Assembly: GCA_946061495.1 (NCBI GenBank)
Contig: CAMGSV010000002.1
Span: 1 to 34,924, forward strand
DNA from: an uncultured Spirochaetales bacterium
GTDB taxonomy: Bacteria > Spirochaetota > Spirochaetia > Treponematales > Treponemataceae
Direction: 5' to 3'
Length of the DNA: 34,924 bases
Shown here in pieces: positions 4,931 to 34,903 of this stretch. The notes beneath the pieces are model-generated. The model had not been told where the DNA came from. It saw nothing but the letters and a program-made list of their open reading frames with translations, and made no database searches. The translations under genes and the position numbers were made by a program. Position 1 is the first letter of the stretch, and every line of letters begins with the position of its first letter.

Positions 4931-6064
4931 ATGAAAAAAACATCTGTTGCATCCATTCTTTTTGGACTTGTGTTGCTGGTGGCGGCACTCACTCCGGCAG
5001 CCGCCTTTCCCGGCATCCAAAGCTATTTGAAGGACGAGTCCGGCCAGTACGTGTACTACCGTGACTACACCTTTCCCTACGAGGCCTACGTGGGCTTCCT
5101 CCACTACGACGAGGGCACCTACGGCATGCGGTTCTATGCCCCCAACCAGCCCTTGGAGGGTGTCTCCCAGGCGGCGGCCCAGGCAGGGATGGCAGCCAAG
5201 GGCGGCATGGTGGGTGTCCCCAAGTCCGTGGAGATTCTATTTACCGTGAACACGGAGACCAAGGTGACGGAGATGACCGGGGAGAAATTCCTCACCACCA
5301 TCACCGGCAGCGACACGGAGATTGTGAACTACCTCCACGACCTGGTGTATGAATTCTCCGCCCGCCGCCGAAAGCTGGCAGACCCCGTGGTGACAAAGGC
5401 GGTCTCCAGCCGTGAGGACTTCCCCCAGTTCGGCGGCCCTGTCACCATGAAGTACTCCTTCGATATACCCATCTTCAACCTGCAGGAAATCATCGGAGCA
5501 GACGGAGCCCCCTCCTTCCAACTGGCCACCGTGGGAGCCTTGGCCTCCTCCAGCGACAACAGCTTCTTTGCCTTCACCGGCTTTCCCGCACCCATGCAGG
5601 ACAAGGCCAGGAATTTCACCTCCACCCAGAAGAAGCCCTCCCAGAAGATTCAGTACAAGGGGCAGGAAATCAAGCTGGATGAGCAGTGGACCCAGGCCGC
5701 CGAGAACATGTACCTGCTGGGTGACGTGGCCATGGTTGCCATGACGGAATTCCAGCCCTCGGAGCAGGTTGCCGCCGCCGGAACCGCCGCCATTCTGGAT
5801 GCCTTCTGCCGCACCCTTTCCCTAGGCTCCACCGGCTCCTACACGGACTGGGGCAACAGGAAGCTCAAGCGGAGCAAGAACAGCCTGGAGGTGAGCCTCC
5901 GCACCCACATCCCGGAGGACAATGCCGTGTCCCAGAACTTCAAGTTCATCACCAAGAACAAGGCCGGCGGCTACTCCATCATGACCCTCACCATCTTTGA
6001 CCGAGCCTACAAGGACAACCGCACCTACTTTGATGCCATCCTCAAAAGCTACAAGGTGAGGTAA
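4931..6064 (+). CDS. Secreted protein of unknown function
   Basis: ATG at 4931 after AGGAA; signal peptide MKKTSVASILFGLVLLVAALTPAAA; no domain recognised. Confidence 0.75.
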   Translation: MKKTSVASILFGLVLLVAALTPAAAFPGIQSYLKDESGQYVYYRDYTFPYEAYVGFLHYDEGTYGMRFYAPNQPLEGVSQAAAQAGMAAKGGMVGVPKSVEILFTVNTETKVTEMTGEKFLTTITGSDTEIVNYLHDLVYEFSARRRKLADPVVTKAVSSREDFPQFGGPVTMKYSFDIPIFNLQEIIGADGAPSFQLATVGALASSSDNSFFAFTGFPAPMQDKARNFTSTQKKPSQKIQYKGQEIKLDEQWTQAAENMYLLGDVAMVAMTEFQPSEQVAAAGTAAILDAFCRTLSLGSTGSYTDWGNRKLKRSKNSLEVSLRTHIPEDNAVSQNFKFITKNKAGGYSIMTLTIFDRAYKDNRTYFDAILKSYKVR

Positions 6065-29751: not shown

Positions 29752-29794
29752 TTGACAAAACATGAGGGGGGGGGGGAGAATGATAGTATATATT
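29752..29794 (+). promoter_or_regulatory. Candidate phase-variable promoter region with G11 tract
   Basis: TTGACA (29752-29757), G11 (29766-29776), TGATAGTAT extended -10-like (29781-29789), then AAAGGAG RBS. Confidence 0.6.
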
Positions 29795-29813: not shown

Positions 29814-30851
29814 ATGAAACTTATGAAGAAGGTGCTTGTTCTGGCACTGGTGGCTGCCACCATCCTGATGGTAGCCTGTGACAACGGAAATGGCGGCGGT
29901 GGAACCGGCAGTAGTGGAGCTGACGGAAATGGCGGCGGCACGAATACTGGTGGTGATACATTCGTTCCACCAACCCTGCCCAAAAACAAGGGAGACGATC
30001 CCTTTGCGGGACTGAAGACCTTGACTACAGACAGCGACACTGTACGTTACCAGGTGGACACCACAAAGAAGGTGCTCACAGAGGAGCGTTCTGAGGACGA
30101 TGGTAAAAATTGGAGCACGAGTGCGGAGTACAGCTACAGCTATGACGGCACAGCAAACCCACCCACCATCACCGGACGGATTGAGGCTCAGTACGAGGAA
30201 GGAACGAGATTCACCCTGGCTGAGGCGCTGGCCGCTTATGAACCCGAATTTAAGGCAGATTTTACCCAAGGATTTGGGGAGATGTTTGACCAGTTGAGTG
30301 GCCTAGACACAGCTCAGAAGGAGGCTGCACTTGAAGGGCTAAAAGAGCAATTCGGTCTCGACCTCACTGTGGCGGATCTTGCAGCAGACAAGAAGGCTGC
30401 CACCTTTGAAAAGGTTTGGAAATCAGAGACTGTTCAGGATATGCTCAAAGAGGGGCGGGATACACTGAAAAAGATGTTTTCCATGACACCCACCTATGCC
30501 GTGACGTTTACCGACAAAATCGAAACCACCGCCAAGCTTGCAGTGAAAGGACAGTACGACAGCACGCTTCCATGGCATGAGCAGACAGCCGGCACATTCT
30601 ACGGCAGGAGCAGCGACGATACTGCAAACGCTTCCTTTGGCCTAGGATTTGGTTCTGTCGAAACAAAAGATGGGTCTTATAAGGTCACGAAGATCACCGA
30701 AGGCACCATAACCTGTAAAGACAGAGATGGTACCTCTAAGTCCTTCTCCTATACCACCACCGGCACTGACAAGGACATGGTTGTCACTATAACTGTGGAC
30801 TCTGGCAAAACTATTGAATGCACCTGGCAGCCTAGCACCACAATCGGTTAG
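29814..30851 (+). CDS. Putative surface lipoprotein of unknown function
   Basis: AAAGGAG RBS; MKLMKKVLVLALVAATILMVAC lipobox; Gly/Asn-rich linker GNGGGGTGSSGADGNGGGTNTGG. Confidence 0.85.
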   Translation: MKLMKKVLVLALVAATILMVACDNGNGGGGTGSSGADGNGGGTNTGGDTFVPPTLPKNKGDDPFAGLKTLTTDSDTVRYQVDTTKKVLTEERSEDDGKNWSTSAEYSYSYDGTANPPTITGRIEAQYEEGTRFTLAEALAAYEPEFKADFTQGFGEMFDQLSGLDTAQKEAALEGLKEQFGLDLTVADLAADKKAATFEKVWKSETVQDMLKEGRDTLKKMFSMTPTYAVTFTDKIETTAKLAVKGQYDSTLPWHEQTAGTFYGRSSDDTANASFGLGFGSVETKDGSYKVTKITEGTITCKDRDGTSKSFSYTTTGTDKDMVVTITVDSGKTIECTWQPSTTIG

Positions 30852-30889
30852 TAGTAGTAAAACAACCGAGTAATAGCTATACAATCCAG

Positions 30890-30920
30890 TCCCCCGGAGC
30901 TTGTTTCGGGGGATTTTTTT
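30890..30920 (+). terminator. Rho-independent terminator of the lipoprotein gene
   Basis: CCCCCG GAGCTTGTTT CGGGGG ATTTTTTT. Confidence 0.85.
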
Positions 30921-30990
30921 GTGGTGGATTCTTGCCGGACTCAGGGTGGCAACCTTTCTTTTTTACCTAAATCCTGCTATACTTACTTCC

Positions 30991-32892
30991 ATGAAAAAGC
31001 TTATCCTTAGTGTCGTCGTATCACTGTTTGCTGCAGCTTCCCTTGCAGCCCAAACCCATACCGCAGTTCCCTTGGACGACCCGATTTATACGGTCATCGA
31101 GCAGGCTCAGCTCAAGGGGCTGTGTCCTGTCTTGAGTGAGGCAAAACCCTATTCCCAGCATAAAATACAATCCATCATCAACACCATCCTGTCCACAGAG
31201 ACGGACCTCCCCTGGGCAGCCCTCACTGCCGCAGAGCGAGCCATCTTAAACCAGACCCTAGATTCCTTCCGAAAGGAGGAGGGATGGAGTTGGCTCAAGG
31301 GGGAAGCATTCCACCAGCACACCACAAAGTCAGGCATCCCCATGACCTTCAACGCAGGAGTATCCTGGCAGTCAGTGTTCTCAGGCTCCGCCCAAGCTGA
31401 AAACGGAGACCTGACAGGGGGAACAGACAACTGGGGCATTGTCTCTCTCAGCGGAGACATGGGCCCCGCCTTCTCCTGGCGTTTCTCCGCAGGCGGCGGA
31501 CTCATGCGTGCCCCCAGAGACTACCTGGGAAAAGCCTACACCTTTTATAAGGGTTTTGAAGACAAGGATATAGATGAGGCCAGAAAAGACCAGAACAAAA
31601 TTTACGATGTGATGACAGAGCCGCTTTCCTTCTTCCCCTACACCTACAGAAAGAACTGGGACGGCTCCATATTCAAGGGAGACAGCCTTGGCTCCAGCGG
31701 CTTCTTCGACTGGCCCCAGGGAATCTCCTTCGGCTACCAGTTGAACGGAGAGGCCGCCGTCTCCTTCTTGGACGATGCCATCTCTGTGCGGGCAGGACGC
31801 CTGATCCGAGAGTGGGGGGCGGGAACCAATGGCAGCAGCCTCGTGCTCAATGCCGCCGCCCGTCCCTTCTTCGGCGTGGAGGCAAACTTCGAGCCATTCA
31901 GCTGGCTCAGGATGGCAACCCTCACTGGTGTCCTGGAGTATTACAATGCAGAGGGCATCAGCGTCAGCTCCGCAACCTTCCAAAACCTCTTCTCCATCGG
32001 CATGGCTGAGGCAAACTACAAGAACTTTGTCCATTTCAGTCTCGGCTCCAGTGTCGTCTATCCAAAGCGGTTCGAGCTGGGCTACGCCTTCCCCCTGCTG
32101 AGCCGTTTCTTCTACCAGAACAATGTAGGAGACTTTGACAATCTGACCATGTTCGCCACCTTAATCGTGCAGTATCCAGGCATCGGAAAGCTCTGGGGCT
32201 CCGCCTATGTTGACGAGATGGATTTGACCAGCCCAGAATTCTTCAATCAGGACCGCAACATGTATGCCCTCCAAGCTGGTGCCGCTGCCACGCTCCCCAT
32301 TCCCGGACTGGCTTTCAGCAATTTCACCTTCCAGTACACCAAGCTAGAGCCCTACGTCTACACCCACCAGCTGGTAAAGACCCCTTGGTACGAAGTATGG
32401 ATGGAGGAGCCCTATATGAACAATGGTGTCTCTTTGGGCTACTACCTACCGCCCAACTCTGACGAGCTGAAAGTGCGGTTTGACTCTTCCTTTATAGGGG
32501 GGGGGGTATTAAATTTCCACCTTCAGTATCAGATGGTACGCCATGGTGCTGAATATGGAAGCCGGGCGGTGGATGGCAGTAGCCTCAATTCTCAGTTGGA
32601 CACCACAGGCCGCAACGACAAGGAAGGCAAGCCAGAGCTGTGGAAGCACTTCCTCCACGATGGTGCCTACCAGTGGCAGCATATCGTCAAGATTGGCGGC
32701 GACTACAATCTGGAAGGTTTCAACATCCCCGTCAAGCTGTTCTGCGACTTGGGCCTGGTCTACTCCTACTTCACCGACATCGACGGCAAGCCCAACTCCG
32801 GACAGCACCAGCCCATCCACAGAATCAACACCTCGGAATACCCCACCCAGACCCGGTTCATCGGAACGGTGGGATTCAAGCTTTACCCATAG
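30991..32892 (+). CDS. Putative outer-membrane beta-barrel (Wzi-like N-terminal pattern), paralogue 1, with G10 tract
   Basis: Signal MKKLILSVVVSLFAAASLAAQ; TAVPLDDPIYTVIEQAQLKGLCP...KPYSQHKI; amphipathic strands; ends RFIGTVGFKLYP. Confidence 0.8.
   Translation: MKKLILSVVVSLFAAASLAAQTHTAVPLDDPIYTVIEQAQLKGLCPVLSEAKPYSQHKIQSIINTILSTETDLPWAALTAAERAILNQTLDSFRKEEGWSWLKGEAFHQHTTKSGIPMTFNAGVSWQSVFSGSAQAENGDLTGGTDNWGIVSLSGDMGPAFSWRFSAGGGLMRAPRDYLGKAYTFYKGFEDKDIDEARKDQNKIYDVMTEPLSFFPYTYRKNWDGSIFKGDSLGSSGFFDWPQGISFGYQLNGEAAVSFLDDAISVRAGRLIREWGAGTNGSSLVLNAAARPFFGVEANFEPFSWLRMATLTGVLEYYNAEGISVSSATFQNLFSIGMAEANYKNFVHFSLGSSVVYPKRFELGYAFPLLSRFFYQNNVGDFDNLTMFATLIVQYPGIGKLWGSAYVDEMDLTSPEFFNQDRNMYALQAGAAATLPIPGLAFSNFTFQYTKLEPYVYTHQLVKTPWYEVWMEEPYMNNGVSLGYYLPPNSDELKVRFDSSFIGGGVLNFHLQYQMVRHGAEYGSRAVDGSSLNSQLDTTGRNDKEGKPELWKHFLHDGAYQWQHIVKIGGDYNLEGFNIPVKLFCDLGLVYSYFTDIDGKPNSGQHQPIHRINTSEYPTQTRFIGTVGFKLYP
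32497..32506 (+). repeat. G10 homopolymer inside the outer-membrane protein ORF
   Basis: TTTATA GGGGGGGGGG TATTAAA, read in frame as F-I-G-G-G-V-L. Confidence 0.97.
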
Positions 32893-34858: not shown

Positions 34859-34903
34859 ATGAAGTCTAAAATAATCCCCGCAAGAATTTGCCCCCCCCCA
34901 TGA
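34859..34903 (+). other. Short ORF start with strong RBS, terminated just after a C9 tract (possible OFF state of a downstream gene)
   Basis: AAAGGAG (34847-34853) then ATG at 34859: MKSKIIPARICPPP*; C9 at 34891-34899. A C8 version stays open to the window end. Confidence 0.4.

Follow-up and report, generated by a model that had tools for sequence, protein, structure and literature searches.

A pure G10 tract in the reading frame of a predicted outer-membrane protein gene of an uncultured spirochaete, a candidate site of phase variation

The predicted outer-membrane protein gene P0001 carries an uninterrupted run of ten guanines within its reading frame, and the gene was judged to be phase-variable in this lineage through slippage at the tract, with the assembled state being ON (probability about 0.58). 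The window, meaning the whole 34,924-nucleotide stretch analyzed, is an entire contig (C2) of an uncultured Spirochaetales bacterium of the Treponemataceae, whose assembly comprises 2.44 Mb in 278 contigs and is 85.6% complete. Phase variation is supported by the exact reading frames, by the 23 G/C tracts of at least 9 in the genome, by lipoprotein tracts that are in frame in some genes and out of frame in others, and by tracts in promoter spacers. Further support comes from length differences between orthologous tracts, the clustering of tracts at contig ends, a C12/C13 pair and TA-Gn-TA flanks, as well as from sister-species tracts in gene classes typical of contingency loci (DNA methylase, type ISP restriction-modification, glycosyltransferase). 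It is weakened by the interrupted runs of the orthologs, the late position of the tract, the homologs without a tract and the approximately two such runs per genome that codon usage would allow. ON/OFF switching of the locus is plausible but unproven. The features of the window are listed in Table 1.

Table 1. Features of the window, with positions counted from its first nucleotide.
Feature	Position	Strand	Description
G11 tract	29766..29776	+	In sigma-70-like promoter spacer (29752-29781), 5′ of lipoprotein gene
Putative lipoprotein gene	29814..30851	+	345 aa; downstream of G11 promoter; no Pfam match
Intrinsic-terminator-like hairpin	30888..30915	+	Between lipoprotein gene and P0001
Candidate -10 box TATACT	30978..30983	+	7 nt 5′ of P0001 ATG; conserved in G003, G005, G008
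P0001	30991..32892	+	633 aa plus stop; predicted outer-membrane beta-barrel; N-terminus resembling a signal peptide; G10 state in frame (ON)
G10 tract	32497..32506	+	Codons 503-506 = Gly-Gly-Gly + first base of Val
Tandem paralogue P0002	33082..34773	+	563 aa; longest G run 5
C9 tract	34891..34899	+	25 bp from contig end; G003 ortholog is C12, 5′ of a further large ORF

An earlier note on this DNA had placed an in-frame G10 near residue 503 of 633, and exactly ten guanines starting at codon 503 were confirmed, flanked by TTTATA on the 5′ side and TATTAA on the 3′ side. The two slippage products given in that note were matched exactly when the unchanged 3′ sequence was re-read in both other frames. 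With G9, the frame reads IGGGY-stop, corresponding to a 506-residue product, and with G11 it reads GIKFPPSVSDGTPWC-stop, corresponding to 15 wrong residues and a 520-residue product. Contingency loci are recognized by a tract in which a change in the number of units alters the frame or the spacing of a promoter; this tract is in frame, and both shifts reach stops within 16 codons.

P0001 and P0002 gave no useful match in Pfam, NCBIfam or PDB sequence searches, and searches of the same collections with the P0001 homologs yielded nothing of note. The AlphaFold model of P0001, obtained from three-sequence input, was poor (pLDDT 49); it has a helical N-terminal part and about 18–20 strands, with short and long connections alternating. 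In this low-confidence model, the tract corresponds to a predicted short turn joining strands 489–503 and 505–519, and the strands 3′ of codon 503 that would be lost on a frame shift are 505–519, 560–574, 581–596 and 620–631. When the model was compared with the PDB by Foldseek, the top matches were 18-strand-class outer-membrane channels, all with TM below 0.5, and Wzi appeared at rank 25, likewise below 0.5. The best fold matches, E. coli Wzi and the Pseudomonas OccD/OccK class, are 18-strand-class outer-membrane barrels, whereas P0001 offers a model of pLDDT 49, TM <0.5 and no Pfam Wzi match, and membership is not claimed. Assignment to Pfam Caps_assemb_Wzi (PF14052) was unsupported, as no profile match was obtained for P0001 or 16 homologs; the profile does match another gene of the same genome, on contig C47. 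On the basis of the model, we take P0001 to be a probable outer-membrane barrel of uncertain family.

The loss or gain of one G would truncate P0001 to 506 or 520 residues, respectively. As the earlier note had claimed, the C-terminal part would be lost on either slip, since the last strands go in both cases, including the C-terminal strand needed for outer-membrane assembly. General knowledge of C-terminal beta-signals stands behind the expectation that such a truncated barrel would fail to assemble, and the product would probably be degraded. Later slips could bring the frame back. Slippage at this tract, and any selective benefit of it, is what we infer.

Relatives were compared using one genome per species. 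Full-length orthologs were available in G003 (83% identical protein) and G008 (75% identical), and both conserve Gly-Gly-Gly-Val with an interrupted run, reading GGG GGA GGT GTA and GGA GGG GGG GTA, respectively. In these sister species, such an arrangement would amount to a fixed ON state. In the closest species, G005, the protein is 93% identical over the first 84 aa, and the contig ends inside the gene, before the tract. The Gly3 motif is missing from thirteen more distant homologs, which have two residues fewer at the site, and a long tract at the corresponding position was absent in every other homolog read. A scan of the genome contigs for P0001 homologs returned one only, at 48%, and none was found in G029, a complete relative of 1.1 Mb. 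The tandem paralogue P0002, described earlier as lacking the tract, has no G run above 5, and it has two residues fewer than P0001 at the equivalent site.

The pure G10 is therefore, among the species readable at this site, specific to this one, whose tract length comes from a single genome. Retention of a tract at the same position in related genomes, which is common but not obligatory among contingency loci, was not observed. The earlier note had named the conservation of exactly G10 in all relatives as an outcome that would refute phase variation here, and this was not found, the runs of G003 and G008 being interrupted. Its proposal of an ON/OFF contingency locus fared less evenly: the exact frames and the many candidate poly-G/C switches in the genome favor it, and the interruption of the full-length orthologs counts against it. 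One or two synonymous changes would suffice to create the pure run, or it may be an ancestral tract locked by interruption in the sisters; the three sequences at the site are compatible with either direction of change (purification or interruption).

The most substantial alternative is that the conserved Gly-Gly-Gly-Val turn happens to use GGG GGG GGG GTA and that no switch is maintained, which is possible, if somewhat doubtful; an accidental run of this kind may still mutate faster than average. Contingency tracts in coding sequence usually sit near the 5′ end, whereas this one lies late, at codon 503 of 633, and this position, the lack of a tract in homologs elsewhere and the different Gly codons used for the same motif in the two nearest full-length orthologs all speak for an accident. 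A comparable case may be the siaD tract of the meningococcus, described in a review as accidental and mutation-prone (PMC11868660).

Codon-usage shuffling was applied to about 324 kb of coding sequence, comprising contigs chosen without tracts of at least 9 plus the window. It gave an expectation of about 0.35 sense-strand G-runs of at least 10 for this set, where the focal G10 is the only one observed, or about 2 genome-wide when avoidance is ignored, which again allows for an accident. However, the same comparison indicated that short coding G-runs are avoided, with 3 observed against 8.7 expected for G7 and 0 against 2.9 for G8, yet a G10 is present here. A tract longer than the coding background, another mark of contingency loci, was thus found.

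Within the window alone, G8+ runs were not over-represented (17 of 100 shuffles reached the observed count). Genome-wide, only 6 G/C runs of exactly 8 were counted, along with 23 of at least 9, 15 of at least 10, 8 of at least 11 and 3 of 13; the extrapolated expectation varied with the fit used, from 0.2 to 19 runs of at least 9 and from 0 to 5 of at least 10. The genome holds an excess of long tracts, and one coding G10 alone is not decisive. The focal run is unusual, yet possible as a codon accident.

The flanking dinucleotides also bear on this question. Among 88 long tracts in four genomes of the genus, TA was found on the 5′ side in 27, on the 3′ side in 42 and on both sides in 15, the focal tract having both. 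In a background sample of runs of 4–7 G, TA occupied both sides in 4 of 2638. At the level of sequence, the TA flanks tie the focal G10 to the class of long tracts, where they are approximately 100-fold more common than at ordinary G runs, which argues against an accident, with the caution that these flanks are also codons of the conserved motif, G008 likewise having ATA and GTA.

Across 65 Treponemataceae genomes, TA came directly after 364 of 703 G9+ runs (52%), whereas AT did so after 57 (8%; p about 8e-56), the count leaving out genus g6 (G014, G034, G045), which has many runs and few TA flanks. The suggestion that the 3′ TA is simply a -10 box was rejected. By hand tally, TANNNT occurred in 181 of 379 TA-flanked tracts, exceeding our own expectation of roughly 30% and leaving at least half unexplained. 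A broader proposal, that the Treponemataceae poly-G repertoire is made or stabilized by a shared TA-preferring process beyond -10 boxes, with the focal G10 as a recently purified member, is considered unlikely.

Many tracts of this genome, judged from their sequence context, look like contingency loci. A promoter on contig C3 holds a G10 in the spacer of TTGACA-21 nt-TATAAT; in the G003 ortholog, a G9 lies within TTGACA-19 nt-TATAAT. The signal-peptide tract of a lipoprotein gene on C255 is out of frame at G10, as are its orthologs in G005 (at G11) and G008 (at G10), and a paralogue on C15 is in frame at G11. The G10 of C72 likewise puts a gene out of frame, one that encodes another lipoprotein, with a sulfatase-modifying-factor-like domain. 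Between species, tract length differed at the orthologous tracts of C140/C161, C255 (compared with G005), C66, C3 and the C9 of the window (C12 in G003), and was equal at C6 and the G11 of the window. A G-run in coding sequence need not be a switch, since reading frames resembling APRT and NusG (identified by eye, not by search) contain G9 runs as well; the APRT-like ORF of 177 codons reads in frame through its tract.

Of the 23 tracts, 6 lay no more than 100 bp from the end of their contig, compared with 0.5 expected (p = 1e-5); the focal tract is not among these six, and contig ends are also sites of assembler error. Contigs C140 and C161 (G000; L092, L093) end on one tract, which is C12 in one of them and C13 in the other, and their flanks differ at several points. 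The clustering and this pair fit a strain mixture with differing tract lengths. The C140/C161 tract sits upstream of an isoamylase-like gene.

In the sister genomes, long G tracts were observed in or at the edge of genes (L133 and L137 in G003, L157 in G008). These genes comprise a DNA methylase with a late tract and the frame shifted downstream, a glycosyltransferase of family 4 and a type ISP restriction-modification gene, and they are candidate phase-variable glycan and methylation genes.

Two further explanations of the focal tract carry little weight. It is very improbable that the assembled length is a consensus or sequencing artefact: the assembly is divided into 278 contigs, homopolymers of ten invite errors and contigs often end at tracts, but G10 keeps the conserved 633-codon frame open throughout, and the 83% and 75% identical orthologs have the same length. 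Equally hard to credit is slippage that serves to vary the C-terminus or to give a smaller working barrel instead of an OFF state, which has no positive support, the +1 product gaining 15 residues before its stop, and which is opposed by the end of both other frames within 16 codons, with all remaining strands lost.

When considering known systems, the haemoglobin receptors HmbR/HpuAB of Neisseria meningitidis carry poly-G in the reading frame, its role being established for HmbR (PMC3786947). P0001 resembles HmbR in having poly-G inside the ORF of an outer-membrane protein, here a predicted one, with frame-shift ON/OFF control as the proposed outcome. It differs in that HmbR switching is documented in isolates, whereas P0001 is an unrelated protein with a tract length taken from one genome and a run interrupted in sister species.

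For Treponema pallidum, promoter poly-G control is established for tprE/G/J, tprL and tp0126, and poly-G control of the TP0127 reading frame is suggested (PMC7864442, PMC3373638). The present case is similar in the family, assigned by inference, and in the association of poly-G tracts of at least 8 with outer-membrane proteins, predicted in the case of P0001, and the promoter-spacer architecture around the G11 of the window resembles the T. pallidum poly-G promoters. The well-studied T. pallidum cases act at transcription, whereas the focal G10 lies in the coding frame. In the literature searched, nothing was found on phase variation in T. brennaborense or on poly-G in gut spirochaetes. The G10 of P0001 is a candidate new member of the poly-G phase-variation mechanism known from T. 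pallidum and Neisseria HmbR.

Among treponemes, most of what is known of poly-G switching comes from the syphilis agent, which is hard to culture. With promoter-spacer, lipoprotein, restriction-modification and glycosyltransferase tracts in its relatives, other treponemes would become practical models of the way in which a poly-G repertoire arises and is locked. P0001 offers a simple test case, with a pure G10 in one species and the same amino acids encoded by interrupted runs in two.

Upstream of P0001, the G11 promoter consists of TTGACA at 29752, an 18-nt spacer and GAGAAT ending at 29781. Its G005 ortholog reads TTGACA-18 nt-TAGAAT, also with G11; in G003, the lipoprotein gene and the G11 promoter were not found at the corresponding site. 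Because P0001 has its own candidate promoter and a terminator-like hairpin upstream, the G11 promoter of the lipoprotein gene probably does not control it. The P0001 promoter is without a G tract, and the start region is without a Shine-Dalgarno sequence; given this and the 7-nt distance of the candidate -10 box from the ATG, the mRNA is possibly leaderless.

At the other end of the window, no overlap of the last 145 bases with another contig was found. Within 34859–34903, a small ORF preceded by AAAGGAG has the C9 tract at its end, where it enters a run of prolines. This frame is shared by G003, in which the corresponding region is L131 around 5713–5724, and the C12 tract of G003 is located approximately 150 bp 5′ of a 615-codon ORF.
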